Positions 35,401-60,051 of a DNA stretch of 64,000 nt are shown here, piece by piece. This stretch comes from Sycon ciliatum (Eukaryota > Porifera > Calcarea > Leucosolenida > Sycettidae). Where the stretch lies: positions 36,132,303-36,196,302 of the forward strand of contig NC_088645.1 in the NCBI RefSeq assembly GCF_964019385.1. The letters run 5' to 3'. The position numbers and the translations under genes are program-made. The notes beneath the pieces are model-generated. The model was given only the letters and a program-made list of their open reading frames with translations. It was not told where the DNA came from and ran no database searches. The stretch's first letter is position 1. Each line of letters begins with the position of its first letter.

Positions 35401-36399
35401 CTTCTGTGCGTATGGGTGTGGTGCAGTGTGTGCCAGATATTGGGAGTGGTGTCAAGGGCGTGATGTTTGACGGATATGAACTTGCTGAACTACACACTCT
35501 CATGTACTCTCTCTTTCTCAATCTTACCCCTCCCCTCCTGCTCCCCCTGTTCTTTCTCTTTCCCTCACACTTCCATTAAATTTTATCTGGTGCGTCCAGA
35601 GCGTGACGATGTCGAGACTAGTTGGTCGACAGCGCACCTGGCCCCCACCACCCTGGCTGCTGAATGTTCCCATTGTGTGCACCACATGGCTTTTAGTAAA
35701 AAAATAAATGGTATGTGTAGTGCATGCAGGAGTATGTGTTGTTGAGTGTGGGAATCTGCTTCCATCCGCCTGAGAGCATTTGTCTACTGGTTGTTGGGGC
35801 ATGCGTAGACTATGTGGAGTATGCGCTGTGACAGTAAGGTCCAGGAGTGAGAGAGTGGTGTGATTCGTCCACGTTGTTGCTGTCTTGGTTCTTGTCACGT
35901 GTGTCGTACGTACTGGTGGCTCAATGAGTCAGAGCGTCGTGTTGTTGCGGGGAATGGGGGAGCAGGCGGTTTCACATGTATCGTTTTCTCATATGTATGA
36001 GTTGATAAGGGGTTTCCTTATATCGACTCAACCTTATCAACTGGCCAATCGACTTATCAACTCAGTCATGTCACCTCTAGTTCTCACTATGACAGACTGA
36101 ATTTGTCATTTGATCTTCGTCCTCCGCTGGAGTAATACTTTTCATCCATTAGTCTATCTCTTCTGTCTGTCAGGGCTTACTCTCACCCAGCGCTGGGGGG
36201 CGGGGGGGGGGGGGGGGGGGAACACCCCTGGCAAATACATACTTCATTCTCTACTTGATGATTGTTCTCCCAACTCAAAACTAGATGTAAACACAGGTGC
36301 CTTTAGTTCATTCAAATAATCCATGCGGGAGTAACTCGTCTGTCTGGAAGTATTGTTTCTCCCAAGAATTAAAACTGCATGAAGATCCACATTACTAAC
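35401..36399. other. Duplicated intron sequence (copy A)
   Basis: Matches 58761-59867 with small indels. A 92-residue plus frame (35467-35745) is shared with 58830-59105 but changes length through an indel, so it is probably non-coding. A poly-G tract is at 36195-36221. Copy C has an extra insertion of about 110 bp near 59285-59405. Confidence 0.55.
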
Positions 36400-36540
36400 C
36401 TGTACATTCTTCAATCCCGGCACTGTTCAGCATTGTCCTATTGGCGATATACCCGGGTTGGCAGCATGTATAGTTTCCAATCTCATTAATGCACCTTTCA
36501 TATTCACAGGGCGTCGAGGGCAGAAGACACTCGTTGATAT
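36400..36540 (-). CDS. EGF-like exon, calcium-binding start, CC type (copy B)
   Basis: A 141-bp phase 1-1 exon with the same borders as 29217-29357. INEC start, C-x6-C-x4-C-x8-CC-x18-C, core NEIGNYTCCQPGYIANRTM. Only about four base changes separate it from copy A. An (AC)n run lies just upstream. Confidence 0.85.
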
Positions 36541-36562
36541 CTGCCACAAAATAACACATATA

Positions 36563-36671
36563 CATGCAGGTACACGTACGCACTCATACATACACATGCA
36601 CACATGTGCATACGACCACACACACAAACACACACACACACACACACACACGCACATACAAACACACACAT
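36563..36671. repeat. (AC)n microsatellite (copy B)
   Basis: About 100 bp of interrupted (AC)n in the position equivalent to the 853-bp run at 29416-30268. Confidence 0.9.
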
Positions 36672-37029
36672 TTCGCTCCAGCTCTTGTAGCAGTTGAGCA
36701 CTCTGGTGTGGGGTAGTGCCTTCGTTGTTTGCGTTACGCAGAGCTAACTGACTTGTCAGTTTGAGCACTCTGGCAAGGTACATTCGGGCCTGGTTTAAAG
36801 GCTTCATTTCTATCAGGTTCGGCCTAATTTTCTCTGTGCTGCGCTGATTCGTCCACAAAGGACGAAACAGTTCTGTCCGCAGATTGAGTAAGATACAAAT
36901 ATAAATATTCTGGGTTTACATACAGGGCGTGTCGAGAACCACCTTTTCGATTTACATTATAATGCCCGGTATGCACACTCCTTTTGGCCAATTTCAAAGC
37001 ATGTGTGTAAATCTATAATAATAATTTAC

Positions 37030-37152
37030 CTTCACAGTCGGTGCCATTACTGCGAAATGCTGGTGAGCATGTACACTGGTATGACCGGTGTGTGTTTACA
37101 CATGTTGCCATGCCAGTGCATTTATGAATGTTCAAGCTACATTCATCAACAT
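37030..37152 (-). CDS. Calcium-binding EGF exon (copy B)
   Basis: A 123-bp phase 1-1 exon, near-identical to 31665-31787. (D)VDEC start, C-x-C between fourth and fifth cysteines, core CVNTHRSYQCTCSPAF. The Pro to Ser change and one silent change are the visible differences. Confidence 0.9.
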
Positions 37153-37203
37153 CTGTTCAAATAAACAAAGATTACACAGCAATGAAGCAAACAAATCTCT
37201 TTC

Positions 37204-37247
37204 CGCTGTTACTCGGAGTTTCGTGTGAAAACATTCATCAGACAGCA
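37204..37247 (-). ncRNA. Decayed hammerhead-like motif (copy B)
   Basis: Minus strand: helix I TGCTGT / ACAGCG, core CTGATGA, helix II ATG-TTTTCA-CAC with an A-C mismatch at the 10.1-11.1 pair, core GAAA, helix III AC-TCCGA-GT and cleavage triplet GTA. A single G at 10.1 would restore a normal fold. It is better preserved than copy A. Confidence 0.6.
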
Positions 37248-37727
37248 TATGCACGGCTGTTACATGCATGCAGAATCCTGCCACTTCGATCCGGGAGCGA
37301 GACCTCGAGTGTTGAGTGATTTTCGGGGATTTCCCGTTCTCAAGTTCAAACTGTGGTTCTCAGTTTGCAGCTTTCTGCATCGATTTCAATGCTCAAAAGT
37401 CCCTTGGACAGCTGATTTCTCCACCGCGCTGGAATATTTTGCCATCACGAGAGCTCTTTGGAGAACCAAGTTTTTTTCTTTCTAGGACGAAGCAGACGTG
37501 CTTCTTTGTTGCTGTCTTCGAATCTTTCGTTTCCTACGCCGTAGCCCTTTTGCTGTTGCTGAGTAGGTGCCCTTTGCCCACGATTTGTGCTGTTGGCGTA
37601 GTTTTCCTGGCGCGGGCGTCAGTTTTTCCTTGTGACATTACCCACCATCTTCCCCTTTTGGCGGATGCGAAGCTCCCGCAGCTACGTTTTTCCGCCCGCA
37701 GTGGCCTTCTGTACATACTCTTTTTAC

Positions 37728-38395
37728 TAGTGTTGAAACGATCTCACCGGATACTCGTTAGCTCGCTCGTCAGAAACTCGGCTCGTTTGTGCGGCCAGCT
37801 CGTTTGCACTAATGAACACCGTACTCCGTACACATGGCAGTACATGTCGACCGGGGAGTCGTAACATATTTTACGACTCCCTGGTCGATCGAGAGTCCAG
37901 TCCCACGCAAAGTGAAATCACTCGCAGTTACAGTGACTGTATGCCTGCACGACACTTGAGTTGTTTCAGTTGTCGTTACAGCTTTGGTGGACTTTACTGA
38001 TGCCTTGTTCCGCGTCTGCTGACCTGTCGCAGGATATGCTTCAGTCACCTCTGCATTCGAGTGAAAGTTACGCTCAGCCGTTTGGAAGTTTTCTCCCGCG
38101 ATGCAGCGAAGATCAGGGCTACTTGCAATCTTTGCAAAAGGTCTATTCTTACAAAGGCTACTCGATGACGGCGCTGAAAAGACATCTCGACACCAAACAG
38201 CAGTCCGAAGTGAAGCAGCAGCAACCCCAAATGCCGGCGGTGATAATTTGAACCAGCTGAAAAAATCGAACTTAGAAACAAATTTGTTCCAAAAAATCAT
38301 ATTTGACATCAATGAAACTCGTTAGCTCGCTCGATAGGTTGCTCGTTAGTGGAACTGATCGCTCGTTTGTTATAGATACGCTCGTTTCAACACTA
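37728..38395 (+). mobile_element. Non-autonomous hAT element (copy 1, 668 bp)
   Basis: Inverted ends TAGTGTTGAAACG and CGTTTCAACACTA are flanked by the 8-bp duplication CTTTTTAC (37720-37727 and 38396-38403). The un-inserted paralogue near 32355-32362 has it once. Inside, a frame encodes part of a BED-type zinc finger (ending LKRHLDTKQQSEVKQQ) as in hAT transposases, but no catalytic domain. Subterminal GCTCGTTAG-type repeats and the AGGGAGTCGT hairpin (37851-37884) are present. Confidence 0.85.
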
Positions 38396-38403
38396 CTTTT
38401 TAC

Positions 38404-40924
38404 TGATGTTTGTATGTTATGGATAAACATTCGGAGAACCTTCAGCGTGTCTGTCACTTTGGTGGCCACCTCAACTAGTCATGGCACGACTTATAGGGTC
38501 TCCAATTACCCAGAAGCAGCAAAGCTGTATTAAAATTGGACATATTGCTTGACAAAAGCAATACTCACGCACCACAAATGTGCAGTAATTGGCATAGAAC
38601 GATTATCAGATCTTATGAAGAAAACAAGCCTTTATCTGGCTCAGTGGGTTGTGGACCTCTGCAAGAATGGTCTCCACATTGATGTTCTGGCTGTGAGCTA
38701 TGTACAAGGCTCAGCCAACTATGTCAAGGGGGCAGAAAAAAGAAAGAAAAATTGGTGGTTTGCGATTGCTAAACGCCTCCTCTTCTGAACCCTGCCGTAC
38801 CAGCTGCTCTTCTGCCAAAGCAGATGCATTGTCTGAGCCTTGTGCACAAACAACACATACATGTGCCAAGCAAACACTTCACGAAACATTGCACACTATT
38901 TCTGCAATAGCTACACCTAGATATAGGCAGATGCTGAGCCAGCACCGGAACGCTTTGCACAACCGTATGCCGAAGTGAAGTGTGCAATTTGTCTCCACAT
39001 TGCCAAGCAAGCAGTGGAGTCACCATGTTGCAGCCATTTGTATTGCAAACCATGTATTTCCTTCCGGCTAGCTATGCACAACAACTGCCCTCTCTGCAAG
39101 AAGGAACTTCATGCACAGCAGTTACTTTCTCCGCACCGTATTGTGGCTGGTATACTTGGTCAGATGGTGTTGCGGTGCGACTTTCATGAGTCTACCTGGG
39201 TAGGATGCATGAAACAAGTACAGCTACAGCATTTTCGTGCTCATGTTGCAGAATGTCCCTACAACCCACAGACACACCATCCACACCACTACCTCCTACT
39301 ATTACAGCCAGTTCTACCTTTACCGATTTGCTTACGGCATCACCATCCAAGCTACGTGGTAATGTGTGTGAGACAGGGCTGGCGCACCTTGTTCGAGGTG
39401 AAGCCAACAAGGACAGTTTAGAGGTCAGGACAGGTGGGAGGCCCCAGGTTTGGACTAGGACACCTATTCCCATGGTGGACAGTACAGATGCCAGTCCCAG
39501 TACGCTGAAGAGAAGAGCATCATATCTCATATCTCATATCTCAAAAAACAGCCAGAAACTGTGTGTGGCAGTGTTGCTGGGGCGACAACACAACTCGCTT
39601 CCACTTTGAAGAAAATTGAGCGAAAGGGATAGTGATGCCCTTCTAGTTGAGGCTGGTCTTCGACCTAGCAGTGCATCTCCTGGCACTGCCGGCACTGGCC
39701 ATTAAAGCAGACCTGCACCTTCCCTGGCACAGGAAACTGCAGAAGTGGTTGGTTTCTTTTGGTGTGTGCATAGAGTCTGAACGCACAGTTTGCAAATCTC
39801 TTCAAGACTTGCCAAAGTTCAAAACAGAACTAATTCCCTTTGCTGCACGAGGTGGCAGTGTTTGTCTTGCACCAATGGTGTACATTGAAGATCTTGTGTC
39901 CTGCATTACACGTCTCCTTGAACTGCACAAGTCTGCGGAGACACTGACCTGGCATGATGGCATGCCAAGTGATGAAATTGGGGTGAAATTGGGAGGGGGG
40001 GGGGGGTGGGTGTGTGACCATGGTGGTGGTAGTTTCAAATTCTGCTGCCAAATCTTGAATGTACCCGACCCCAATGCCCCTCAAAACACAGTTCCAGTAT
40101 GCTTCTTTACTGCCAAGGATCTTGCAGCCAATCTTGAAAATGCACTTGGCCGCTACAGACCACAGGTCGAGACTTTGCTGAACACAGCATGGGAAGGGAG
40201 ATGTATCTGTCTGGGGATGACGAGTTCCTTACGACAATTTATGGCCTTTCGGGCTTCAGTGGGGTGCGTCCTTGCTTGTTTTGCCACTGCGACTTGAAAA
40301 GAAGGCCATGCAAGTGGAGAGAGAGCAACGCACTCCCGTCAGCAATCACAGCCTCGAGACACTCTCGAGAGATTTCACTACATTCACATCTTCTGGCGCT
40401 GTCTTACACAATGCAAAGTATCACAACAATGTTATCAGGTATTGTATTTTGCCCATTGCTTGGGAGCAAGTATCTATTCCAGTTTTGCATCTGGATCTTG
40501 GCATATTTCCATACCTTTACTATGCCTTTTGTACTGAGCTCTAGACTTAGACCTAGTTAAGTGTCCAGGCCAAGAAATGGCCGAAACAGACCAAAGTACG
40601 TTCCGGTCACTAGTCGTGGCTAGGAATCTAATAGAAGAAAAAAACCCACTCTCGCTAAAGCTCAACAAGAGCACAAAGCCATTTAACTGCAGCTGTAGTA
40701 TGTTATACTGTATGCTCAGCAACAGGGCCTGCCTGTACAGTCAGTACAGCTATTGGCGGTTGCATTGCGGGTGCAGTGGAAGGAAAAGAAAACGGGTCTA
40801 GAGGAGTCAGAAAAAGACCTGCAAACATTTTCAACAGAGTTTGAAAAACTAGTTGAAAAGAATGGAAAAGGCTGCTGGTCCCTGCTTTTCTTCTCTTGAG
40901 CAGGTGTTGCAACAATACACTATC
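38404..40924 (+). pseudogene. RAG1-N-like transposon gene, copy B, 5' part
   Basis: In order: a decayed Zn-binding region (to about 38800); a RING finger at 38977-39110 (CAICLHIAKQAV, PCCSHLYCKPC, NCPLCKKEL); a linker LLSPHRIVAGILGQMVLRC and a C-x-H zinc finger ending HVAEC (to about 39260); then a transposase-like region with DLPKFKTELIPFA (39790-39850), GGGSFKFCCQILNVPDPN (40020-40080), SGDDEFLTTIYGLSGFSG with PCLFC (40210-40290), and VLHLDLGIFPYLYY (40480-40530). The RING-zinc finger pair follows the RAG1 N-terminal layout. The remainder resembles the multi-copy invertebrate family I associate with N-RAG-TP-type elements. Frameshifts and stops are present. The frame is cut at 40924 by BEL copy 2 and resumes at 54621. 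Confidence 0.65.
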
Positions 40925-41265
40925 TGTTCTGTAGAGGCGTGCTCCTGCCTCGGCACACACCCAAACCACACAAAGGACCAGCTCGCGACTATCAAGAGAA
41001 CTCTGTTAGAAAACTCTGGCTCCAAGCCGCAATTGCTTGAAGCCTTTCACCGAACTCGTAAGCACTACAGCCTACTATAGCAAACTGATTACTGCAGTGA
41101 AAACGTCTAGCTTATAACATTTGCATGCCAAGAACTCCATCAGCAGGCGCGAAAGAAGGTGAAGACAAAGCCTGTGACATAAAAGTGTGAACCCTAACGA
41201 AAGTCACAGCTACATGTAACACAAAACGAGAGTGCATGTCAGTGACACGTGCGACCTCCTGAACA
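40925..41265 (-). repeat. 3' LTR of BEL/Pao copy 2
   Basis: A 341-bp LTR starting TGTTCTGT and ending CTCCTGAACA on the plus strand, matching 54280-54620 with scattered substitutions. The outside base pairs form the duplication TATC. Confidence 0.9.
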
Positions 41266-41492
41266 TTCTCCCCTTCCCGATATGTTGAAAAGTAACATCG
41301 AAAAGCATATCGCAACTCAACAAACAAATATCCAAAGCGACAAAAGCATTATTCAAAAAAGCTGTTGAAGAAATCCAGCAAATGAACAATGTGAACACAT
41401 TCAAGAAACAGTGAATCAAACTTTCCTTGAAATCAGTTTCACAAACGCCTCCCGCGGGTTGTTGTCACCTAGCCAATGTGACACCAGGGGCT

Positions 41493-42713
41493 TTAGCACA
41501 AGCCAAGCGGACATAGTCGTGTGATAGGGTGTGTCTTCTCCTTGCCGCCCACAAGCACCTTAGCCACTCGTACATGTCCATCTGGCTCAGGAAAGACTGC
41601 CGTGATTCTTCCCAATGGCCAGTGCCCTCGTGGCGTGTCGAGATGAAGAACTAGTACCATATTTCCAACAGCCAAGTCCCGATTGATCTTGATCCACTTG
41701 CGACAAGCATAAAAGCGTCGGAACCCATTCCTGTAGCCAGCGCTTCCACACTTGGCATATTACGTCCTGCACTAACCGCCATCTCTTCTCTGGGCTGAAC
41801 TCTGTCGTGTCGACGCTCGCAGGTGCAGGCTGCTCGTTAGCGTGTCCTGTCAGAAAGTGTAACGGGGTAAGCGGGGTGTTGTCGTCCGCACTGGCGCTCT
41901 GGTATGTCAGAGGCCGAGAATTGAGGAGCGCCTCAAGTCCGACAATGGCCGTCGTCAGCTGCTCATCAGTTAAGACGCCTGGAGAGTTGCCGAGAATAGC
42001 AGTCAATGCCTTCTTGGCTGCTTTAATCATGACCTCGTGGACTCTTCCATGGTGTGGGGCCAATGGCGGATTGAAATGCCACATCACTCCTCGGTTTGCC
42101 AGAGACCGCTGGATGGCATCTTGGTCGAGCTGTTGCACAAGGGCTAGCAATTCCTTGTTGGCTCCCACGACGTTTGTGCCATTATCGGACAACATCTCTA
42201 ACGGCAGTCCACGTCGGCCGACCATCCGCGTGAATGCTTTCAGAAATGAGTCGGTGTCTAGTGCATAGCTCATCTCCAGGTGGAGAGCAGACAGGTGAAC
42301 AGGCAGAGGTATCGCTTCTGTTGAACTCGTCCTCGACCTTGCTTGGTCGAGAATGGCCCTCCATAGTCCAAAGAACACAGGGCAAATGCGCGCAGTGGAG
42401 TTTTCAACCGCATAGCAGGGAAGTCGGCCATCACTTGTTCTACTGGCTTCGCCTTGCGATTAGGGCATGTATTGCATTCTCGTTCCCACTCGCGAATCAT
42501 TTCACTCGCGCCTTCAATCCAATAGTGGGTGGTTATCGCGGCAAGAGTCTCGTTCGTTCCACCGTGCTGCCGCATCTCATGGTGGTCTTTCACGATGAGA
42601 CGTGTTAAGGGGTGCCGGCGCGGCAATAAGATTGGATGGCGCACATCGAAAGGCAAATTGTCTGCCAGTCGGGTTCGTCCGGACGCTCTCAAGAGACCAG
42701 CATCATCTATCAC
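41493..42713 (-). pseudogene. BEL copy 2 integrase, frameshifted
   Basis: Frame 42713-42270 carries the zinc-binding part (HHEMRQHGG, CNTCPNRKAKP) and the first acidic motif (SLDYGGPF). Frame 42378-41587 carries the rest of the core (LSDNGTNVVGANKE, then PHHGRVHEVMIKAAKKAL where E is the third acid) and AIVGLEALLNSRPLTY. The tail (HWPLGRITAVFPEPDGHVRV) is in a third frame ending at 41493. At least two frameshifts inactivate it. Confidence 0.8.
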
Positions 42714-42764
42714 AGGCTGCAGCTTTCCTAGATGTGACTTGGCCGGTAAGGGTTCAATAGCATC

Positions 42765-45700
42765 CTAGAAATCTTCGTGTTGAGCTTCCAGGATGATATC
42801 GTTCTCAGCCTCACTTAGCTCCGCTACGGTCAGCTCCCCGCTACGCTTCTCGGCACGGCGACAGTTGTCAAGGAAGCGGTTGACCAAAGCCCAAACTCTT
42901 TTGTAAAACAGCCAACCGGAGAAACGATGTGGCGCAAGTCTTCCTTCTTCCCTTCCGTCACCTGTGACGGTTTCTTGCTCGTTAGCAGTCGAGTTTGCCA
43001 TCACTTTCCTGGTCTCTTGGTCTGCCTCGTGTGAGAATGAGGCGGGTCCCACTAGCCACTGCGCTGGTTTGTTGTGCAGGAAGGGCGGTCCCTCCCACCG
43101 CAATGTACAACTACTTAGCTCCGCAGCCGAAGTGCCACGAGATGCGAGGTCAGCCGGATTCTGTCCTGATGGCACATGATGCCATTGCTGCGGTTGTGTC
43201 ATCGTCTGGATCTCTCCAACACGGTGCGCTACAAATGGCTTGAAGTTATGGCTTGGACTTCTGATCCACCAGAGAACATCAGCACTGTCGCTCCAGAAGG
43301 TCACCTCGGACATTGGCCACTCCAGCACATGGCACACAGTTTCGGCCCGATGCAAACCGAGAATGGCAGCCAATAGCTCCAATCGTGGAATGCTAGTTGA
43401 AGCTACCAGGCGAGTCTGTACAGTATAATCCGAGCTTAGGTCCCGGCTGTACGCTACAGCTCCATACGCCACCATTGACACATCTACGAACACATGGATA
43501 GAGCTGTCTCCGGCTGGCCCGCTAGGGAACAGGCAACGAGGTATATTGACGGCAGACAGCTGTGTTGCTCCCGAGCACCACCGTCGAAACTTGTCGGCTA
43601 ATGGCCCTATCACCTCATCGTCCAAGTCGACGCCGAGTGCCCAGAGCTCCTGAATTAACACCTTGCCGACCGTTACAAATGGTGCCACAAATACTAGCGG
43701 GTCGAACAGCTTGGCAATTTGACTCACCACCTGGCGTTTGGTCACCTTGTTCACTTCCTGGAAGGCAGGCTGGAATTGGAACACATCATGTTGCGCTACC
43801 CATCTGACTCCGAGCGCTTTCATCGTCGGCTGGCTTCCATCATTGAGCTCCAGTGCAGACAGCCGGTCCTCCGCGGGTATCTCAGCTAGAACCGCAGGCG
43901 ATTTACTCAGCCATTTCCGTGCCTTCATGCCGGCTGCAGCCCAGATCAGTGACAACTCTTGGTACATTTGCACTGCCAGTTTGTCGTTGGCTACTGAATC
44001 AAGAGTATCGTCCATGTATGTGGACTTCAACACACCATTGGCGCCTAGCGGGTGAGTCGACAGATACTTTGATGCATGTTCCTGCGTCACAAGATGGGCG
44101 ACGAACGGAGAAACATTCAGGCCAAAGACCAGCCGCTCAAACTGAGAGACGTCCGGTTGAGCATCACTCTGCGGTGGTCGCCACAGGAAACGCAAGTACG
44201 GTTGATCCTCGGGGTGAATTCGAATCTGAAGATACATCTCCCGAATATCACAGACGATGGCTACGGGGTTGCGTCGAAATCTGAGCAGCACATCCAATAG
44301 CTCTCGCTGCAACTTAGGGCCCGGATCTATGCAGTCGTTTAAGGCCACTCCATCGCACCTTGCAGCCGCGTCAAACACCAGTCGAACTTTAGTTGTACTC
44401 TTATTCATCCGGATGACAGGGAAATGTGGCAAATACCATGCCTTTTCCGCTGAAACTGTTGTCGCCAGTCGCCTCACATAGCCCTTGGCTTCATACTGTT
44501 CGATTGTGCTGCTGTATGCCTCTGCAATAGACGGATCACGGTTCAGCCGGTTCTCCGTGTTGCGTAACCTCTTCAACGCCATGCTGTAGTTGCCGGGCAG
44601 TTGCGACTTCCGCTCATTCCATGGCAGTCGAATCTCGTACCCAGCCCCGTCGAATTGCCGCATTGACTGCTCAACTTCAGCCTTCACACTGCGGTCTTTC
44701 ATGTTCCAGGGGGGGGGGGGGGGGGGGGGGGGCTCAGGGCTGATGCCGCCTTGATCAACTTCCCAGAACCGTTGCAAGCAGTTGTAAAGCGGGTTCAGCT
44801 GTACGCCACAGTAGGTACTGTTGGCGCGAATTGGTCCATTATCATGGTGCAATACAGCTCCGATACATGTCCAACCTAACGGCATTCTGCGAGCTAGCGG
44901 TTCTCCTGGCTTGCCATTGACTTCTTCCAAGGCAGAATGGAATTCACTGTGATCGCTGCCAATCAGAACGTCCACTGATTTCTCGGTGAGAGCCGGGAAG
45001 GGAACATCGCGCAGGTGGTCCCATTGGGCTGCCGCATTCGCCCAGTCAACGGCCTTTAAGTCGCTTGCAATGTTATCAATGGTTAGCGCTGTTAATTTGG
45101 ACTGGAATGTTCCGTCAGCGCTTTCCACTGTGATGTTGACCGGCGTAGTGACGAATGTTTCCGTCAGCCCACTCAGAAGAGAAACTGATGCCTGCTGCGG
45201 TCTTCCTGCCACCCTCAACTGACCGGCAGCTGCAGTGATTATGTAGGTGGTAGTGCTGCCATCGTCCAACACAGCGTTGACCCGTAGCCGTACTCCTTCA
45301 TGCACAAGCGACACCGGGAGGATGCGTAACGAGACTGATGGTACTCCACACGGCCGATCTTCTCCCAGATCCGGCTCCCCTTCCGTGATGTCGCATGCTT
45401 GGATGGAGCAATTAATAGAGGCTTGCTCTCTTGCAGGTGTTGTTGCCCCTCTTGTGCTGATTGAAGCTGTGGGAGCGCTTGACGATGCTGCATCACCGCT
45501 TATGGCTGCTTCAGACAGGTTCCGTTTCTGCTGCGGTTGACGATAATGAAGGAGCTGGTGATGTGTCTGACTGCAGCCACTGACACCACACTTCCTGTTT
45601 CTGGTACAGGATGTCCCTCGATGTCCAGTGCCAAGGCACCTATAGCAGAGGCCTTTCTTCTTTGCTGTTTCCCACCGCCTGCTGGGCGACTCGCTCTTGA

Positions 45701-45962
45701 AGATGTCACAACTCCATGTGTGATGGGGCGCATCACATACGGCACACTGGATTTTGGCAGCGCTCTGACCAGAGGCCAGGAATGACGACGCGTAGGGCTC
45801 CGGAGCTGCCACCGAACGTTGGCCGACTTCTTGCAGGAGCTGGTTTAGTCGGCAGCGCCGCTGCATGAAGACCATTCGCAGAACTGACTCCGTGGGCCAT
45901 CTCCGCTGCTCCAGTAGCGAATTCTGCCTCGAGGGCCACCCATTCCAACAGCGTTGGTACAC
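42765..45962 (-). pseudogene. BEL copy 2 Pol: zinc knuckles, protease, RT, RNase H
   Basis: The 1065-residue frame holds zinc knuckles (CAVCDAPHHTWSC, CYRCLGTGHRGTSC; residues 75-135), a protease with VLDDGSTTTYI (about 230), RT from about 510 with RLVFDAAARCDG and active site TYMDDTLDS (about 648), and Pao-type RNase H with FVDVSMVAYGAVAYS (about 825). A Pro run from the poly-G tract at 44708-44733 lies between protease and RT and probably varies in length. The frame is open throughout, but it is separated from gag and integrase by shifts. Confidence 0.85.
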
Positions 45963-46064
45963 TGCTGGGTTTCGTGTTGTTGTGACGCCAACGGTTAAGC
46001 TGGGTCAGCATGGGCATCGGCAGCTTGTTTTGCAGCTGTCGGAACAGAAGACCATCGCCCAGCT
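45963..46064 (-). pseudogene. BEL copy 2 Gag, downstream piece
   Basis: The minus frame reads ELGDGLLFRQLQNKLP and TQLNRWRHNNTKPSSVPTLL, the region that normally follows the DUF1759-type gag domain in BEL elements. Its continuation upstream is at 52066 onward, across the nested insertion. It leads into the pol frame through a frame change near 45960. Confidence 0.8.
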
Positions 46065-46118
46065 CATATTCTCATTTCAAAAAATCTCTTTCAGATCTTG
46101 ATCTCACTTCACTCCATT

Positions 46119-46454
46119 TGTTGTGAACCCTCTAAGATTCTCTAAATTGTCAGGATCGTACGACCACACGGCACGAGGACAACACTTTTCCTTTAGACAG
46201 TATATTTCACTTCATCCAATAATTAACAATGAACACTAATAACACCAGCTATTTATAGCATGCAAAAACAGCATACATGCAAAAACATACGCATATAAAA
46301 CTGTACAGCGTATACAGCAAAACACACACAGCGCATATAGCGTATGCCATGCAGCAACATCAGCGGTACGGCGGAGTTGAAAGACAACATTGCGACGAAT
46401 ACAATGCCATAAGCGCGAAGGCCTTTCCCAATTGAGAACTGGTGGTTTGCAACA
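46119..46454 (-). repeat. 3' LTR of BEL/Pao copy 1
   Basis: A 336-bp LTR starting TGTTGTGAAC and ending GTTTGCAACA on the plus strand. It differs from 51450-51790 by three substitutions and one 5-bp indel, so about 99 per cent identity. Confidence 0.95.
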
Positions 46455-46502
46455 TTCTCCCCACCAAAGGGCTTCTCACCGCCGTACAACAATGCACACA
46501 AG

Positions 46503-49500
46503 TCAAAAACGATCCGGGGCTCTGACTACGCGCCCAGAACGCGTCATCTCCTGCTGCCGTGGTGGTGGTAACGGTGCTGACGGTTCATACGCTGGCTGCT
46601 GAGGGACGATAGCAGGTTGAGCGGTATCGGCAAGCCCAGGAGCCACGTCCTGTGACGATACTTCTAATGGCACTAACCTTTGGATCGGCCTCAACAGGGT
46701 ACTGGTACTCAACTTAACCTTGGCAACACGACGCTTACCATCTCGACCAGGGAATAACTCGATGATCCGTCCCAAACGCCAGAACTGTTTGCGCTTGGTA
46801 TCATCGAGAACAAAGACAACATCACCCACAGCTAAAGGGCGCGACATGGTCTGTTGGTGTTTGTTCAGCTGACTTAGGTACTCCACCTCCCAACGATTCT
46901 TAACATGATCCAGTGTCCGACTGAGGTAACGCAATCTCGATGACATCTGCGCAGCGTCCAGGGTACCTGCTGGCTTCTCTGACGACATCCAGATGTCACC
47001 CATCATCATTGCAGGGGTTACTGGTGGCTCATCCAGGCTATCAGACACATAAGTTAGCGGACGACTATTCACCACTGCTTCAACCTCATACAAGAGGGTC
47101 TCAAGCTCCTGGACCTTCAGAAACGCTGTTCCCATTACCTTTTTCAAGGCACTCTTCACTGTTCCAACCATTCTCTCATAGAAGCCTCCATGCCATGGTG
47201 CAGCTGGAGGATTGAACATCCATGGCACACTCAGTTTGTCAGATGCCGCCTTGAACGTTGTAGCGTTGTCAGACCTGATCCGAGACGGCAAACTACGTCT
47301 CGCGACAAACTTCCGAAATGCCATCAGGAATGACTCGGTACTTAAACTATCGACCACCTCCAAGTGAACTGCTCTGGTGGTGGCACACACAAACAATGCT
47401 ATCCATACCTTCGGAGATGACTCACCACGGCGCACGTACAACGAACCAGCATAGTCGATGCTGGTAGTTGCGAACGGCCTCTCGTGAACAACTCGGTCTT
47501 CCGGCAGCGGCGGGCAGACTTCTGAGGCAGCCTTAGCCTTGTAGCGGCGGCAGGTAACACATCGCTGAGTAATGTTGCGTAGCGCCCGTCGACCACCGAT
47601 AATCCAGAATTTCTGACGGATGAACGACAAGACTCCTTCTACACCTTGGTGCATCCTTTCAACATGCATTTTCTCCAACAGCAACTCGGTCAGATGATGT
47701 TTGCCTAACAGGACTGGGTGCTTGGCTCCATACGCCAACTCGCTGTGCTGAAGTCGTCCCCCGGCTCTGAGCACTCCATGCTCATCCAGAAACGGTGCAA
47801 GCTGATACACCTTCGACCCAGGCTTCACTGGTTGACCTTGCTTGATCAGCTCAAGATCCTCAGCGAAACATGCGGCTTGAACGATGCGGTACAATACGTT
47901 GTCTGCTGCAAAATAGAGTTCAGCACGAGGCTCAGTGTGCTTCCACTGCAACATCCGAGTCACCATGCCCTGTGCCCTCGACCATTTACTGAATCGGAGC
48001 CACCATTCCTTATCAGATTCTCGACTACAGGTGGTGGCTGACACTCGTACTTCTACATTGGACTCATCTGTAGCTGCGGTTGAGGGTGCGGTGGGCCAGT
48101 CATTGGGCTCCGTGATCGTGGTTGGTCCGCCCCTCCAGAACGGACTACGGATATGCTGTGCACTACTCCCACGCGACGGTAAATCTGCTGGGTTGTGAAG
48201 GCCCGGGCAATGGTTCCACACAATGCCGACCTTCTTCGATATCTCTTGGACTTGACTGACGCGGTTAGCCACAAATGTTTTCCATTTGTATGATGGATTA
48301 CTGATCCAATGAACGGTAGTGAGACTGTCAGTCCAGCCATAGACTTGCATGACGGTCACACGCAGCTCCTTCACCACAAACTCAGCGTAGCGAGCCGCTA
48401 GACATACTGCTTGTAACTCAAGGCGGGCTAACGTGGGCGGAGACACAGGTGCCACTTTGGCCTTGGCAAATACCAAGTGCGACTGTCCATTGACGACTGC
48501 ATACAAACAACATCCAAACGCTTTCTCACTGGCATCAGCGAAGGCATGAAGCGCAATCGGCGTGTCAAGATTGCAGCAAATCCAACGTGGTATGTCAATG
48601 CTCACCACTTCGGCCAACTCTCCCCACCATTGCGCACATGCGGCTGCGATGCCATCAGGCAACATATCATCCCAGTCGTCTCCGACTTTCCTGGCTTGCT
48701 GTAGCAGTATCTTTCCTGGCACAACTGCCGGTGCTGCTAGACCTAGCGGATCAAACACTGATGCAACACACTTGAGGAGGGATCGCCGGGTCCAAACAGA
48801 CGGCCTATCGGACTCGCCTAGCGCTGCTATGCTGAGCAAGTCATCACTGGTTTTCCATTTCACACCGAGGACTTTATCTCCGGCCTCTGGATCGCACGGG
48901 ATTTCGTTGCCTCGCCACTTGCGTAACTCCATGCCAGCATCCGTAAGCACACGCACGCTGAACTCTTGCATCTCCTTGGCTGCCGAGGCATTTGAGACAC
49001 TAGAGACCAAATTGTCAACGTAGAAACTCGTGAGCAAGAGATCAATACGATCTCGCTCTTTGGGTGCAGACATCGCCCGTAGCTCCTTCAAGTGATGCTG
49101 AATCACCGCAGTAAGCATGTACGGCGAGCAGTTTACGCCAAATGGCAGTTTCGTTAGCCTCCAGGTTAACAGTTCATCGCTGTCGCTTCGACCGGGCCAC
49201 AAGAAACGCAGGTACGGACGGTCTTCGGGATTAACCGCGACCATGAAGAAAGCCTTGCGGATGTCCGCTTGCAGCGCGCTCTTATATTCACGGAACCGTA
49301 ATAGCATACCTGCGAGACTCGGCAATAGCGACGGTCCAGGGTCAACCATGTCGTTCAACGACTTGCCATCTGGAGCCGTCGCCGAGGCATTGAACACCAC
49401 TCTTAACTTCGTGGTTGCAGCGTGCTCGCGGAATACACCATGATGCGGTACATAGTACCCGGCATCGCTCTCACATGGCTCCAGCTCAATTGCTCCAAGC

Positions 49501-51419
49501 TCACGGTACTCCTTGATCAGCACATCATCATAGAGCGCACGCTTCCCATTCCTCTTCAGCTTTTCAAGAAGCCGCGTTGCGATGACTCTAGCTTGAGCAA
49601 AGTTATCCGTTGGGCGACGCTCATTTCGCCACAAGAGACCCACTTGGTACCCGCTGCCCTGGCGACATAGCGGGAAAGATGGCAGGTGCTGATGTTGTTC
49701 TGGAGGTTCATCCAACTGCCATAGTTTGTCGATGTGGGCTGTGACACATGACACGGTCACCGGCTGACTGTTACGACTTGGTGCAGACGCTGGACCAGAT
49801 AATATATTACCTATCTCTGTGTTCCACACCGTCTCACCATTAACTTCCTTCTTGCTGTGCAGTACCGCGTTGATATAGTCTGCACCAATCAGCATATGTA
49901 TTTCGTCTGATGTCCCTTGTTGAGGCTGGTCACTCAGCTCTACTCCCCAACTGTGCCACTGCGCAATGGTCTGCGGACTAGCGCACTTCAGGTCCAGCTC
50001 TATCGTTGGTTTCACGAACGCGCGTACCCGAATGCTAGCAGAGCTACTCTGGATCGTGATGGCGTACTTATCCATGCGCTGTTGGGTTGGTTCCGCGCCG
50101 AACGGCTTCACCTCTACATTTTCAACCCCAATGTGTTCTGCATTGATTGCTGACACCAACGCTGCAGTCACGAATGACGCCTCAGCACCCGAGTCCAGGA
50201 ACACGCGAACCTTCGCGTTTCGAGTTCTTCCCTCAACTCGTGCCACTCCGGTCATCAGCCGCACACTTGGCGAGTGTAGACAGCACGATCCAACATTCTT
50301 CTCCGTTACTATCTCAGTCGGTTTCTCCCGGCTGTAACCTGCTCTATCCAACACATCATGTATTAGCAGGTGGTGTTTCCTCTGGCATTTCGTGCATCTC
50401 GCGCCTGACCGACATTCTCTGGCCATATGGCCATACTTAAGGCAGTTCCAGCAGAGTCTCTCGCGCTGCAGAAAACCCTTTCTCCCTTCCTGTGGCAGCG
50501 ACTTTAGCTGCTTCTCTGCATCTGCGACCGATATCGCCATGCACTGTGCCGACGCCGTGGGCCTTGGCACGGATCGTTCTACTGGCTTCCTGGCAGTATC
50601 ACCCTGTCGTCCGTGTGCGACCTGGTAAGACGCGCCGTGCTCCTGTACCTGGCGCAGAGACATCCCGTAGCACTGCCGTTCGACCAGGTACGTCTTCATC
50701 TCAGGTCCGCATTGCTCCAAGATTACCTGCTTTGCCATTGCTTGCAGCACCGGGGCCATTTTTCCTATATCGGCGCTATACTTGGTGTCCACCTCGCCAT
50801 CTTCTGTCATAGCGAGTGTGGCCCACACCTCTACCTCTCGGCAAACACGGACAACGTATTGATGAAACGACTCATCTGACCGCTGCTTGCCTGTCAGCAA
50901 TGTCTTCCACGCTTTATCCGGAGTCTTTCCGAGCGAGGCAAGCAACTCTCGCTTTGCTTCCTCGTAATTGTTGCATCCAATACATATCCTCTCCCCTTTG
51001 CTACCCGCTAGCGCGATGCGCAGTCGCAGCAGCCATTCGCTTTCTTCGAACTCATTCTTGGAACAGATGTCCTCGAACAGGTCAAGATAACGCTCCAATG
51101 GCTGCGTCCCATCATATGAGGGGATTTTCATCAGCGGTTGACGCCCACCGCTGTGACTGGGAGATTCCTCTGTACCTCCCATCGCGGCTTTACCCTCACC
51201 CTCATGCGCATTGGCGATGCGCTCGTTAATCTCCTTTAGTGTTTTGGCAAACTCGGTGCGGAGCGCCTCCTCTCGCCGTCTGGCACTGCGCTCCTCACGC
51301 TCCGCGTACTGTTGGAGCCTCTGCTCCACATGTACCTTCAACAACTCGCCTTCTAATCCTAACCGCTCTCCATTGTCGATAAAGCTGGCTTCCAAATTGT
51401 TCCATAGTTCCTCTGCCAT
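46503..51419 (-). CDS. BEL/Pao Gag-Pol polyprotein, 1638 residues, intact
   Basis: The start chosen is MAEELWNNLE at 51419, the first ATG after the 5' LTR; an upstream in-frame ATG at 51500 lies in LTR sequence. Domains in order: Gag with coiled, Glu/Arg-rich N-terminus (to about 300); zinc knuckles CWNCLKYGHMAREC and CTKCQRKHH (320-350); aspartic protease VFLDSGAEASFV (about 405); RT from about 645 with RVVFNASATAPDG and active site FYVDNLVSS (about 798); RNase H with HAFADASEKAFG (about 960); integrase HHCC region (1245-1290) and D,D,E core (SIDYAG, RSDNATTF, GFYERMVG; about 1322, 1383, 1414); C-terminal FWRLGRIIELFPGRDG (about 1550). RT carries YVDN and not YVDD, a variant I recall from other BEL elements. 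Confidence 0.95.
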   Translation of the reverse strand: MAEELWNNLEASFIDNGERLGLEGELLKVHVEQRLQQYAEREERSARRREEALRTEFAKTLKEINERIANAHEGEGKAAMGGTEESPSHSGGRQPLMKIPSYDGTQPLERYLDLFEDICSKNEFEESEWLLRLRIALAGSKGERICIGCNNYEEAKRELLASLGKTPDKAWKTLLTGKQRSDESFHQYVVRVCREVEVWATLAMTEDGEVDTKYSADIGKMAPVLQAMAKQVILEQCGPEMKTYLVERQCYGMSLRQVQEHGASYQVAHGRQGDTARKPVERSVPRPTASAQCMAISVADAEKQLKSLPQEGRKGFLQRERLCWNCLKYGHMARECRSGARCTKCQRKHHLLIHDVLDRAGYSREKPTEIVTEKNVGSCCLHSPSVRLMTGVARVEGRTRNAKVRVFLDSGAEASFVTAALVSAINAEHIGVENVEVKPFGAEPTQQRMDKYAITIQSSSASIRVRAFVKPTIELDLKCASPQTIAQWHSWGVELSDQPQQGTSDEIHMLIGADYINAVLHSKKEVNGETVWNTEIGNILSGPASAPSRNSQPVTVSCVTAHIDKLWQLDEPPEQHQHLPSFPLCRQGSGYQVGLLWRNERRPTDNFAQARVIATRLLEKLKRNGKRALYDDVLIKEYRELGAIELEPCESDAGYYVPHHGVFREHAATTKLRVVFNASATAPDGKSLNDMVDPGPSLLPSLAGMLLRFREYKSALQADIRKAFFMVAVNPEDRPYLRFLWPGRSDSDELLTWRLTKLPFGVNCSPYMLTAVIQHHLKELRAMSAPKERDRIDLLLTSFYVDNLVSSVSNASAAKEMQEFSVRVLTDAGMELRKWRGNEIPCDPEAGDKVLGVKWKTSDDLLSIAALGESDRPSVWTRRSLLKCVASVFDPLGLAAPAVVPGKILLQQARKVGDDWDDMLPDGIAAACAQWWGELAEVVSIDIPRWICCNLDTPIALHAFADASEKAFGCCLYAVVNGQSHLVFAKAKVAPVSPPTLARLELQAVCLAARYAEFVVKELRVTVMQVYGWTDSLTTVHWISNPSYKWKTFVANRVSQVQEISKKVGIVWNHCPGLHNPADLPSRGSSAQHIRSPFWRGGPTTITEPNDWPTAPSTAATDESNVEVRVSATTCSRESDKEWWLRFSKWSRAQGMVTRMLQWKHTEPRAELYFAADNVLYRIVQAACFAEDLELIKQGQPVKPGSKVYQLAPFLDEHGVLRAGGRLQHSELAYGAKHPVLLGKHHLTELLLEKMHVERMHQGVEGVLSFIRQKFWIIGGRRALRNITQRCVTCRRYKAKAASEVCPPLPEDRVVHERPFATTSIDYAGSLYVRRGESSPKVWIALFVCATTRAVHLEVVDSLSTESFLMAFRKFVARRSLPSRIRSDNATTFKAASDKLSVPWMFNPPAAPWHGGFYERMVGTVKSALKKVMGTAFLKVQELETLLYEVEAVVNSRPLTYVSDSLDEPPVTPAMMMGDIWMSSEKPAGTLDAAQMSSRLRYLSRTLDHVKNRWEVEYLSQLNKHQQTMSRPLAVGDVVFVLDDTKRKQFWRLGRIIELFPGRDGKRRVAKVKLSTSTLLRPIQRLVPLEVSSQDVAPGLADTAQPAIVPQQPAYEPSAPLPPPRQQEMTRSGRVVRAPDRF

Positions 51420-51449
51420 GCTCGCTCCTATCCTGGCGTGGTCGCCAAA

Positions 51450-51790
51450 TGTTGTGAACCCTCTAAGATTCTCTAAATTGTCAGGATCGTACGACCACAC
51501 GGCACGAGGACAACACTTTTCCTTTAGACAGTATATTTCACTTCATCGAATAATTAACAATGAACACTAATAACACCAGCTATTTATAGCATGCAAAAAC
51601 AGCATACATGCAAAAACATACGCATATAAAACTGGACATAACAGCGTATACAGCAAAACACACACAGCGCATATAGCGTATGCCATGCAGCAACATCAGC
51701 GGTACGGCGGAGTTGAAAGACAACATTGCGACGAATACAATGCCATAAGCGCGAAAGCCTTTCCCAATTGAGAACTGGTGGTTTGCAACA
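51450..51790 (-). repeat. 5' LTR of BEL/Pao copy 1
   Basis: A 341-bp LTR paired with 46119-46454. It contains five extra bases near 51636 relative to the 3' LTR. Confidence 0.95.
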
Positions 51791-52065
51791 CCATTAGCTA
51801 TTGACACACGAGTACGTTCTGTGCCCTGTCCATCATCAATATTACCTACATGTACAACCACAACACACATAAAATACACTGCTGCATGGTATTTTTATAA
51901 TTGTCCTGCTGACAGTCATGACATCTTATCATATTAATCTATCATACTATTATATTTTTCATCATAGCCTAGGAGCTGTGGCATCATTAATGATCCACAG
52001 CAAGAAGGCAGCAATGCCTGTACCTATGGCGAAGTAAAATAAAGGTAACATAACATAACATATTC

Positions 52066-54215
52066 CTTGCCTGCATCCACCATGTTCACTATCAGCACAT
52101 CCAGCAAATCGGCGAATCTCTGCATGTCTCCAGGCCGGACTGTCTGGAGGGCGGGGAACGACTCTATTTCCTCAAATTGGAGGTTTGTCTGCCTCTGCTC
52201 GCCACCAAATTTCCTGGCTCGGTTTACGGCGGCTTCGTAGGGATGGGCCGAGTAGCCTAGGCTCTCGATGGCAACCAATGCCTCTCCACCTAAATACTGC
52301 TTCAGGTGCAGGAGCTTCACCTCCGGACTTGAGCTCGTCTGCCCAACACAAGCCATGAAGGCTGCTCTCCAGGCACGATTGGCTTTCTTGTTGCCTGTGA
52401 ACGTTGGAATTTGTATGGGTTTCAGCCGCCGGAATATCTCGTCCGATGACTGTTGATGCCGTGTTTGGCCTGGTGCTACTGATGGCACCGGTACTGGTGC
52501 GGCAGTCGACCCTGCTGGTTGCAAACCCATGGCCTGTGGAGCGGGCGGGCTCCACAGACTAGCTGCTGGCACAGTGTGCACACCGACCACACCACTGGCA
52601 CCAGCCCACTGCCGAGACGCAGATGTAATTACTGGTGACTGAGTAGTGGTGCGGCAGGTGTAAATGGATTGCTGGAAAAGCATGGCAGGCACAGATCCAG
52701 GCGGCCTGCCGATTGCGCTGAAAAGCGTTGCAGGTACGGATGATCCAGGCAGCCTGTCGATTGCGCTGCTTCCGCTGACTGTCTGCTAGGATGCAGGCAT
52801 CTCTGGCCTCATTCCATTTGCGCTGTTGGCGCTGGCAATCTGGAGTGCTAACGTTTCAGCCGTTGACACAGGTAGGTTGCTGGTCATGCTAATCGCTCCA
52901 ATGCCGTTTGCGCTGTTTTCGCTGATCAATCCTTAAGGCGCTGATCCTGCAGAGGTCACAGGCTGTGCGCTGTCCGCGCTGGTCTGAATTTCCGACGTGT
53001 GCACAGGCTCGGATCCAGGCGGCCTGCCAATTGCGCTGAATAGCGTTGCAGGTACGGATGATCCGGGCGGCCTGCCAATTGCGCTGAATAGCGTCGCAGG
53101 CTCGGATCCAGGCGGCCTGCCGGTTACGCTGAATAGCGTTGCAGGCACTGGTGCAGACTCTGGATCTGACGCATGTGGGGCGCTGCTCGTGCTCATCTGG
53201 GGAACAGCCGCGGACAAAGGCGGACCGCTTGTCGCTCTGTTCGAGCTGTCCAAGTGCCCGGTGGCGCCAGACTCTAAAGCGGCAGCAGCTGGCGCGCCGA
53301 TCCCTCCAACCTGCGCCACAGCCATGGACAAAGGCGAGCCTCTTGCCGCTCTGCTAGCGCTGACCTGGGTCTGAGACGGAGTGAGCGCTCTGTGGACCAA
53401 CGGCGTCTCTGGTCGCAACTCATCCGTGCCCATTTCGGTCCGCTTTCGCTGACCGCCTTGAAATTGTCTTCACTGACTTCAGCAAGACCGTACTCCGTTT
53501 CCCAGTGCTCGTCTGCAACTTGCCCTACGCCGGCTGATCGACTCGTCGGCTCGTACGTGTAGCCATGGTAGCCGTAGTCGTACGCTAGTCCACGTGCAGC
53601 AGTAGACTCCGAGGCCTCAACTGAACTTCTGCCGTGCTCGTGCAGGTAGCTCCGGGCACCAGACCAACTGGGCATAGTGCTTGCGGCAGATCTGCTGTAC
53701 ACGTACCCGACCTCCGAAGCTAGTTCGAGTCGAGCCTGGACTGGGTGGGGCCGCTGTGAGACGCCCAGGTAGTCATTTCCCTCCGCGTAACTACGTACCT
53801 GCCCACATTCGTCCTCCAACATGCTCTCGGTTGCGGTGGTGAATCGTTCCTCGAGCAATTCCGCTTCCCGCAGCGTTACTTCCATGCACTTCTCTTCGTT
53901 GGTTGAGCTGTACAGACTGATGAGGTTCATGATAGCACTGGTGGCGTTGTCATAATGTGAGCTTAGCTCGGCTAGCTCGTCATTAGCTTGCTCTCCTCGC
54001 ACTCCGCCATTCATGGAGCGCACGAGAAGTGTCTGCCGCGCGTTGGTGAAGTATTTTTTAGCTACCATTTTTTCTCTAAGCAGCTCGCTAAGCTTCTCGC
54101 GCTTGTTCTCTACTGCCGCTGGTTCATCTCGGTGGTTTGCTTCTTCGGTGCTGGCGGTTCCGTCCTCCGCGGCTTGGCTGTCTTTCTCCTTGTCCTCTTC
54201 GACTGGAGACTCCAT
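52066..54215 (-). pseudogene. BEL copy 2 Gag, upstream piece
   Basis: Frame 54215-53274 starts MESPVEEDKEKD and has an acidic, coiled N-terminus. At about 53430 the reading moves to frame 53433-52933 (TDELRPETPLVH on), ending at a stop at 52933. The DUF1759-like capsid domain (IPTFTGNKKANRAWRAAF, LLHLKQYLGGEALVAIESLG) is in frame 52692-52066. Between them the unit PATLFSAIGRPPGS is repeated in tandem three to five times, from a minisatellite of about 54-57 bp at 52690-53150. Frameshifts make it a pseudogene. Confidence 0.75.
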
Positions 54216-54279
54216 AGCTGCGCTTAGGTGGAACGTTCAGCACTTACGAGGTTGACTCGACCATCCTCCGCTACCAATA

Positions 54280-54620
54280 TGTTCTGTTGAGGCGTGCTCC
54301 TGCCTCGACACACACCAAAACCACACAAAGGACCAGCTCGCGACTATCAAGAGAACTCTGTTAGAAAACTCTTGCTCCAAGCCGCAATTGCTTGAAGCCT
54401 TTCACCGAACTCGTAAGCACTATAGTCTATTATAGACAACTGACAACTGCAGTGAAAACGTCCAGCTTATAACACTTGCATGCCAAGAACTCCATCAGCA
54501 GGCGCGAAAGAAGGTGAAGACAAAGCCTGTGACTTAAAAGTGTGAACCCTAACGAAAGTCAAAGCTTCATGTAACACAAAACGAGAGTGCATGTCAGTGA
54601 CACGAGCGACCTCCTGAACA
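54280..54620 (-). repeat. 5' LTR of BEL/Pao copy 2
   Basis: A 341-bp LTR paired with 40925-41265. More substitutions separate this pair than separate the LTRs of copy 1, so the insertion is older. Confidence 0.9.
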
Positions 54621-55090
54621 ATATCAAAAGGCAAGCCTACCATGCTGGTGCCTTTGTGGGCAACCACATCCACCGTGCTCTTGACGCAAAGGTGCTCAAA
54701 GAGTTGACGTCTGCTCCAGTGCAGGTTGTAAACAACCGAAGTCTTCAACCCTCAACACACCAGCAGCTGAAGCTGAGCTTGCCAATATTGCACAAACAGC
54801 TAAATCCCAGCATGTGAGGTACCATCGTCTGCTTTCTGAGTACGCAGCTTGCAGAGCGATCTTCTCCACAACAACCCCTATTTCCAACAGCACAAAGGGC
54901 ACATTGGTCGACCACATTAGAAATTTACTCGCCACTTGTCGTCAGGAAATCGTCGCCAGGAAGCCGGGCAATTATAACGCCTAAATTGCACCTTATCGAG
55001 GAGCATGTGTCCTGTATGGATCACTTCGGCATGGGCTTGTCCCTTCTTGGTGAGCAGGGCATGGAGTCCATGTGTACCGGTATGTGTGTG
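54621..55090 (+). pseudogene. RAG1-N-like transposon gene, copy B, 3' part
   Basis: Continues 38404-40924 across BEL copy 2. The frame reads KRQAYHAGAFVGNHIHRAL, ELANIAQTAKSQHV, LLSEYAACRAIFSTTTP, TLVDHIRNLLATCRQEIVAR, then shifts to KLHLIEEHVSCM and SLLGEQGMESM. The K-x-H-L-x-E-x-H ... GEQG-x-ES ending is the conserved end of the family. It could hold the last acidic residue of a transposase core, an analogy with RAG1/Transib that I cannot confirm. It ends in a (GT)n-rich stretch. Confidence 0.6.
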
Positions 55091-56208: not shown

Positions 56209-57626
56209 AAGTGTTGAAACGAGCGTATCTATAACAAACGAGCGATCAGTTCCACTAACGAGCAAGCTATCGAGCGAGCTAACGAGTTTCATTGATGTGG
56301 CAAATAATATTATTTTTTGGAATAATTCTTTTTCTAAGTTCGATTTTTTTCAGCTGGTTCAAATTATCACCGCCGGCATTTGGGGTTGCTGCTGCTTCAC
56401 TTCGGACTGCTGTTTGGTGTCGATATGTCTTTTCAGCGCCGTCGTCGATAAGCCTTTGTAAGAATTGACCTTTTTGCAAAGATTGCAAGTAGCCCTGATC
56501 TTCGCTGCATCGCGGGAGAAAACTTCCAAACGACTGAGCGTAACTTTCACTCGAATGGAGAGGTGACCGAAGCATATCCTGCGACAGGTCAGCAGATCCC
56601 CCTCCAGCATCTGAACAATGTTCAGCGCCGCGCGCTTCATGCTATCGGCCCTGGGGCACACCTACCCAGCCTGGCCATCCGCCGCACTGTTGCCTCGCTT
56701 GCCTGCCTGTACAAGCTGCACTACTTGCCTGGTCCTCCGCAGCTGCTCTCTGTGTTGCCACCGCGCCACATCATCTCTACCAACCCCAGAACTCGCAGCA
56801 AGCACGGTGCTGTCAGTGGCCATGACCACCAGCTCCAACACCAGCTGCCTGCATCTGCCCCGCTGGCACTGAAGCGCTCGTTCCCACACTGCAGCATCAG
56901 CGATTGGAACTCCCTCCCTGCAGCTCTCCTATCCCAGCCTCCCCTCAGCAAGAGAATGCAATCATTCAAAACGAATGTTTACCGCCATCTTCGCAGCACA
57001 AATTGGCTCTGGGCAGTCGATTCCCTATGAATAGTATGACGCTAAGACAGTTTCTCCCCCACAATCGCTCGTGTTAAGCCTTGGGTTTTTGCATCTTTCT
57101 CACCTGTACAGCTCTATCTTCTTCTTTTTTCATTGTTTTTGGTCCGTGTTTTTGGCCGTGACGCCGAGACCTCAGGTCGGCAGAGTCATCAATGCCCCAC
57201 CATCACTGCTGCGTCTCGGTGCAGCGCCTGCTCATTAGTACCCACGTTTGTCCTAGTCTCCGTACCATTGTCTTTCCTTATTCTTTTCGAGCTGGTTATG
57301 TGAACGTAGTAAAAAAAAAAAAAAAAAAAGATGCGGAACAAGACATCAGTAGAGTCCACCAAAGCTGCAACGACAACTGAAACAACTCAAGTGTCGTGCA
57401 GGCATACAGTCACCTGTAACTGCGAGTGATTTTCACTTTGCGCGGGACTGGACTCTCGATCGACCAGGGAGTCGAAAAATAGTTTACGACTCCCCAGGCG
57501 ACATGTACTGCCATGTGTACGGAGTACGGTGTACGGTGTTCGTTAGTGCAAACGAGCTGGCCGCACAAACGAGCCGAGTTCTGGCGAGCGAGCTAACGAG
57601 TATCCGGTGAGATCGTTTCAACACTA
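56209..57626 (-). mobile_element. hAT element copy 2 with nested LINE
   Basis: Ends AAGTGTTGAAACG and CGTTTCAACACTA are flanked by the 8-bp duplication TATACAAC (56201-56208 and 57627-57634). It is the same family as 37728-38395, in opposite orientation. The minus frame at 56661-56359 encodes a BED-type zinc finger (CNLCKKVNSYKG, then TALKRHIDTK). It is interrupted at 56597 by a LINE fragment. The AGGGAGTCG hairpin lies at 57464-57498. Confidence 0.85.
56598..57329 (+). mobile_element. 5'-truncated LINE with poly-A tail
   Basis: The frame from 56598 reads LQHLNNVQRRALHAIGPGAH, ASLACLYKLHYLPGP, HCSISDWNSLPAALL and MQSFKTNVYRHLRS, the C-terminal part of a LINE reverse transcriptase protein, ending at about 57030. 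A 3' untranslated region and 19 A residues (57311-57329) follow. AGAT flanks both sides as a short target duplication. It lies inside hAT copy 2. Confidence 0.8.
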
Positions 57627-57843: not shown

Positions 57844-58202
57844 CTCAAAACTGCAATGCTTTCAGCGTAGCAATATACTTCGCCATTTGAGAATTGAAAG
57901 TGGATCCACTTACCAGAGTCTGTGCACCCACTTCAGTCTCTCTCGTATACAGTAGGTTTTGCACAACACACTGGGCTGAACTACACATTTGTATTTGTTT
58001 TTGCATTTATGGATTCTCCACAGGCCTAAGCCTAAATCGAGGGAGTCTCCGTCAACAGCTTATGAAGAAGAAGCTGAGGAGAAAAATAGAAATAGGAAAT
58101 AGAATGATGCGGGGTGGTAGTAATATAACACACTGCTCTATGACGTCGTTACTCTACGTGGAATGAAACCATCAATGAATGTTAACTATATCAGATACTT
58201 AC

Positions 58203-60008: not shown

Positions 60009-60051
60009 CTGCCACAAAATAAAACACACGCACACATGCACAGAAGCAGGT

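Follow-up and report, generated by a model that had tools for sequence, protein, structure and literature searches.

In a stretch of 64,000 nucleotides from the calcareous sponge Sycon ciliatum (contig NC_088645.1, positions 36,132,303 to 36,196,302 of the forward strand; hereafter the window), we found two decayed, dead copies of a transposon whose protein, in its full-length relatives, carries a RAG1-type N-terminal zinc region, a RING and a following zinc finger ahead of a DDE transposase core. Judged by sequence, both copies are very probably remnants of a Chapaev-type cut-and-paste DNA transposon.

Results

Copy 1 lies at 31511–33530 and copy 2 at 36878–40924, resuming at 54626 and running to about 55084, both on the plus strand. 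The two are 92–95% identical wherever both are present in a self-comparison of the window, and tblastn with 30 family proteins (E ≤ 1e-3) returned four intervals, all on the plus strand (32398–33736, 38377–38760, 38843–40966 and 54614–55084). Profile A3, built from 28 members of the family, matched window frames down to E 1.9e-67, whereas its best E against 20 randomised windows, obtained by first-order Markov resampling, was only 0.0097. Stops or frame changes occur in every frame of both copies, and neither is a working gene.

When the joined translation of the window was used as a query, 20 proteins were recovered at E 2.7e-90 or better (30–39% identical), and a profile of those 20 (A1) added 10 more, giving a family of n = 30, of which 18 members are 1,009–1,106 aa long. 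Two relatives carry names of a type used for Sycon ciliatum. Among the 20 proteins in A1, and within the 25 of 49 Pfam families listed for them, DUF1280 was present in 20/20, RAG1_imp_bd in 16/20 and zf-RING_2 in 12/20 (E ≤ 1). The full-length relatives are transposases of about 1,000–1,100 aa, with three zinc-binding pairs (Chapa), a RING and a zinc finger joined to a DDE core of predicted RAG1/Transib fold; RING and transposase are thus linked in one protein, a link on which the original prediction depended. Scans of IMG/VR with A1 and of bacterial and archaeal genomes with A3 gave 25 and 39 pattern matches, respectively, and no relatives, although near records may be left out of such scans.

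The N-terminal zinc region is present in both copies. By motif search, copy 1 carries HPPQMCSNC at 32530–32556, EWSLH at 32635–32649 and CTGCELC at 32653–32673 (plus strand), and the corresponding region of copy 2, at 38404–38760 on the same strand (tblastn 38377–38760 from 21/30 query proteins), has decayed forms of these motifs (HAPQMCSNW 38566, EWSPH 38665, CSGCELC 38683). The RAG1_imp_bd domain scored 19.8 bits in copy 1 (E 6.7e-4), under the cut-off of 23.3, and 24.7 bits in the joined translation, over it. The RING and following zinc finger occupy 38927–39275 of copy 2 (plus strand; RING 38981–39103, zinc finger 39170–39256), and the single open reading frame (ORF) of the RING matched zf-C3HC4 over its cut-off of 21 (23.9 bits, E 3.8e-5). 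The family profile aligned with mouse RAG1 101–381 at E 1.9e-24, matching zinc pairs, RING and ZFA in RAG1 order. Every motif that the original prediction had read from the sequence was found in the window, and the order that it proposed across the two copies, with the DDE core following, was confirmed.

Alternatively, a transposase might by chance have acquired the RING of a TRAF6- or LNX-like E3 ligase, without any tie to the RAG1 N-terminus. The RING itself gives some room for this, as its closest match in the Protein Data Bank (PDB), RAG1 (3jbw, 9.4e-10), was only narrowly better than TRAF6 (2.7e-9). However, the zinc region of about 100 residues ahead of the RING is collinear with RAG1 (21wb, E 3e-13; 1.1e-13 in another search), and the family and RAG1 N-termini have 18 Cys/His columns in common that are 98.6% identical between the two groups, so that we regard a chance fusion as most improbable. 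In a predicted model of the pre-RING zinc region, structural matches mostly covered model residues 207–317.

The first part of the transposase core lies at 39271–40924 of copy 2 (plus strand; DUF1280, tblastn and motifs) and contains GGRPQ at 39433, CDHGG with the first D at 40013, GDDEF with the second D at 40213, PCLFC/CLFC at 40270 and LHLDLG at 40485. DUF1280 was detected in the single ORF 39647–40297 at E 7.3e-11 and in the joined translation at 44.2 bits, against a cut-off of 25. The C-terminal part, at 54626–55084 (plus strand; tblastn 54614–55084 from 22/30 query proteins), contains RQAYHAGAFVGNH at 54629, KLHLIEEH with the zinc histidines at 54983–55006 and GEQGMES with the catalytic E at 55049–55069. 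The D-D-E, CxxC and HxxxxH (four residues between) positions were invariant in all non-gap rows of A1, and these motifs are also found in the window.

The two parts are separated by a BEL/Pao LTR (long terminal repeat) element, here called A (40925–54620, minus strand). Its empty site, ...VLQQYTIKRQAYHAGAF..., reads in one frame, and joining the flanks gives a single open frame, VLQQYTIKRQAYHAGAFVGNHIHRALD, that matches relatives (e.g. NIQRQAYHGGAFIGNHVHHAL in P0002). GDDEF, PCLFC and LHLDLG at 40.2–40.5 kb and KLHLIEEH and GEQG at 55.0 kb therefore belong to one gene, as had been proposed for a span of 38.4–55.1 kb; the 41–54 kb interval within that span was rejected as part of the element.

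The predicted core of a relative has a RAG1-type fold and is 17–18% identical to RAG1 in structural alignments, which suggests that the full-length relatives have this core fold; helices 399–440 and 448–484 of the model mostly face gaps in the profile alignment to RAG1. A RAG1-like predicted core together with RAG1 domain order is also what a RAG-like transposon (RAG1L/RAG2L, 'TransibVDJ') would offer. On the evidence of the core and its domains, such an identity is very unlikely. The core of BbRAG1L (6b40) shows a clear sequence relationship to RAG1, with 317 bits against the RAG1 profile (1.5e-93), whereas the core of the window family appears unrecognisable to RAG1 sequence profiles, and a RAG1 core Pfam domain is absent from both the 10 families listed for P0002 and the 9 listed for the joined translation. 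The family thereby stands apart from vertebrate RAG1 and, as regards the sequence of the core, from RAG1L, to which the protostome RAG1L of PMC7204232 also belongs. DUF1280, moreover, is assigned to Chapaev. Transib (HzTransib, 6pqx) is described without an N-terminal region (PMC7204232), whereas the window family has such a non-core region. The missing sequence match is itself compatible with a relation to Transib, since HzTransib is not among the 60 of 169 chains listed for the RAG1 profile A5.

Several published features point instead to Chapaev. DUF1280 has been assigned to putative Chapaev transposases and placed with RAG1 in one clade (PMC3985635). Chapaev proteins have a Chapa domain, followed by a RING in two subgroups (PMC4411706, citing Kapitonov and Jurka 2007), and after this account we equate the RAG1-type N-terminal zinc region of the family with the Chapa domain. 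Between the second D and E, C(2)C together with H(3-4)H forms the CMCT signature, which is reported for EnSpm, Mirage, Chapaev, Transib and RAG1; CA..TG ends and duplications of 2–5 bp are further features of the CMCT clade (PMC12730594). The window family, with DUF1280, a Chapa-type zinc region, a RING after it and D-D-E with CxxC and HxxxxH, thus appears to fit the Chapaev of the CMC/CMCT clade that carry Chapa and RING; the likeness is one of description rather than sequence by sequence, and the window copies differ in being dead.

A number of observations weigh against this reading. Membership in Chapaev is deduced from DUF1280, the order of the domains and published descriptions. The RING cannot by itself tell RAG1 from TRAF6, and in the joined translation it fell under the Pfam cut-offs (zf-C3HC4 20.5 bits versus 21). 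By hhalign, the core showed no significant similarity to RAG1 (probability 4.2%, E 0.0098; 1.2%, E 0.046), and phmmer with P0020 or the core-only profile A6 returned no RAG1 or Transib chain in the PDB. Finally, terminal inverted repeats and a target-site duplication of the element were not found within the window, where the 3′ end is lost and the 5′ end is not clean.

Panchin and Moroz reportedly described, in 2008, an element of Aplysia californica, N-RAG-TP, with a RAG1-N-terminal-like protein and ends resembling recombination signal sequences (RSS). Taken in their sense, the window family would belong to a separate kind of transposon that later fused with Transib to give RAG1, a reading that we consider possible, if clearly less probable than a Chapaev identity. 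It is favoured by the same RAG1 N-terminal order in the family (E 1.9e-24), which supports the likeness drawn by the original prediction to an invertebrate transposon of this kind, and by the discordant divergence of N-terminus and core, as expected if the RAG1 N-terminus had a history of its own (see Discussion). N-RAG-TP has, however, been described (PMC8355894, PMC2996935) as the N-terminal part only, composed entirely of RAG1-N-terminal-like sequence (PMC8355894), whereas in the window family a DDE core with DUF1280 follows in the same protein. Nor did RSS-like sites exceed chance: with up to 3 mismatches, and with the element ends missing, the window gave no 12-RSS (expected 0.97) and one 23-RSS, at 1263–1301 (expected 1.11). 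By its description, N-RAG-TP is probably the same kind of element as the window family, and since it may be a partly described Chapaev, the two readings are not exclusive.

The history of the two copies can be read from their breaks. Copy 1 begins with about 0.9 kb of upstream sequence in common with copy 2 (31511–32373, 94.9% identical by self-BLAST to the 5′ part of copy 2 at 36878–37727, plus strand), followed by the zinc region and part of the post-RING region. At 32814/32824 the alignment of copy 1 skips 38843–39190 of copy 2, and with it the RING, which is deleted from copy 1. The match between the copies stops at 33530, where a DUF7869-type transposase remnant (33531–34365, plus strand; E 1.9e-16, and 1.1e-15 for a piece) directly abuts the broken end of copy 1. 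We rejected the remnant as a continuation of copy 1; it is of a different family, and copy 2 continues otherwise. Past GEQGMES, copy 2 fades into TG-rich sequence and its 3′ end is lost at about 55090.

Copy 2 is also interrupted upstream of its zinc region by a foreign, hAT-like insertion (37728–38395, minus strand; ends TAGTGTTGAAACGA), flanked by an 8-bp duplication, CTTTTTAC, at 37720–37727 and 38396–38403 and assigned to hAT from its ends and duplication length rather than from a profile. Position 38404, taken earlier as the start of the second copy, is the first base after this insertion and its right-hand duplication; similarity between the copies begins already at 36878. In the self-comparison, the insertion matches 56210–57626 in inverted orientation, a longer copy of the hAT-like element (56209–57626, minus strand; 8-bp flank repeat TATACAAC), within which LINE-like sequence with an A-tract end near 57310 was recognised by reading, not by profile.

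BEL/Pao A has 341-bp LTRs (40925–41265 and 54280–54620) with 17 mismatches in 341 and TG...CA ends, and 5-bp flanks, CTATC and ATATC, that differ by one base. The 344-bp repeats seen at 40.9 and 54.3 kb are these LTRs, and we rejected a reading of them as a pair of overlapping copies of the transposon. A second BEL/Pao element, B, is nested within A, as found by LTR comparison (LTRs 46119–46454 and 51450–51790), and one 500-aa piece from each of A and B contains Peptidase_A17 and RVT_1 together. Element B has a single open frame of 1679 codons (46503–51542, minus strand) and LTRs 97.7% alike, which suggests that it inserted fairly recently.

Further repeats were seen in the self-comparison. 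The segment 63758–63894 (plus strand) is about 75% similar to 31659–31795 and 37024–37160, upstream of both copies, and may mark the margin of an older, third copy that extends beyond the window. Segments 34658–36657 and 57986–60117 (plus strand), 89–93% alike, are a repeated block around the transposon copies, and at their ends they overlap a sequence that recurs at 29177–30710. A CA/TG dinucleotide tract of roughly 900 bp lies at 29400–30280.

Discussion

We infer that an intact transposase of this family would act as follows. The core would bind putative terminal repeats of the element and dimerise, and would cut with a D-D-E active site formed by the first D in GGDHGG, the second D in GDYE and the E in EQGxES, presumably braced by the CxxC and HxxxxH zinc site. 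It would then join the element to a new target, by analogy with Transib and RAG1, and so confer mobility. The RING/zinc-finger part probably dimerises and tunes the transposase as a ubiquitin ligase, as in RAG1.

The original prediction also held that the family bears on the origin of the RAG1 N-terminus, and a first, simple comparison of the two parts of the protein leans towards separate histories for them. Columns came from hhalign local alignments (249 N-terminal and 168 core; 231 and 165 without the shared Cys/His columns), the core columns being the best-aligning part rather than the whole core. Family rows of at least 60% of the length of the first row were used (17/20 N-terminal, 19/20 core), and the RAG1 profile A5 comprised 13 sequences, with RAG1L not included, out of 120 listed of 233 RAG1 matches. 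Without the shared Cys/His columns, mean identities for N-terminus and core were 29.9% and 52.5% among family members, 44.2% and 82.0% among RAG1 sequences, and 17.4% and 16.9% between the two groups. The corresponding core/N distance ratios were 0.53 [0.45–0.63], 0.24 [0.18–0.32] and 1.02 [0.85–1.21], and the between-group ratio fell to that of the family or lower in 0/2000 column bootstraps at identity floors of 0, 0.06 and 0.10. Within each group the core is thus the more conserved part, with the N-terminus evolving roughly two- to fourfold faster, yet between groups both are equally similar.

Relative to conservation within each group, the RAG1 and Chapaev N-termini therefore appear far more alike than the cores, which would fit different histories of the two parts. 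We treat this discordance as a lead and not as proof, since accelerated evolution of the core along the RAG/Transib branch would give the same pattern and identities of about 17% are near saturation. In a tentative and somewhat unlikely scenario, RAG1 acquired its zinc/RING front end from a Chapaev-type transposase like that of the window family, or exchanged it with one, once the Chapaev and RAG/Transib cores had already parted.

Two views of this origin have been published: in one, the RAG1 N-terminus was fused onto Transib from N-RAG-TP (PMC8355894); in the other, the ancestor already combined Chapa, RING and core in one protein, parts of which have disappeared from Transibs (PMC4411706). 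The 30 relatives collected here (18 of them longer than 1,000 aa), with a RAG1-type N-terminus and a core of predicted RAG1 fold in one protein, provide material for testing both views by separate trees.

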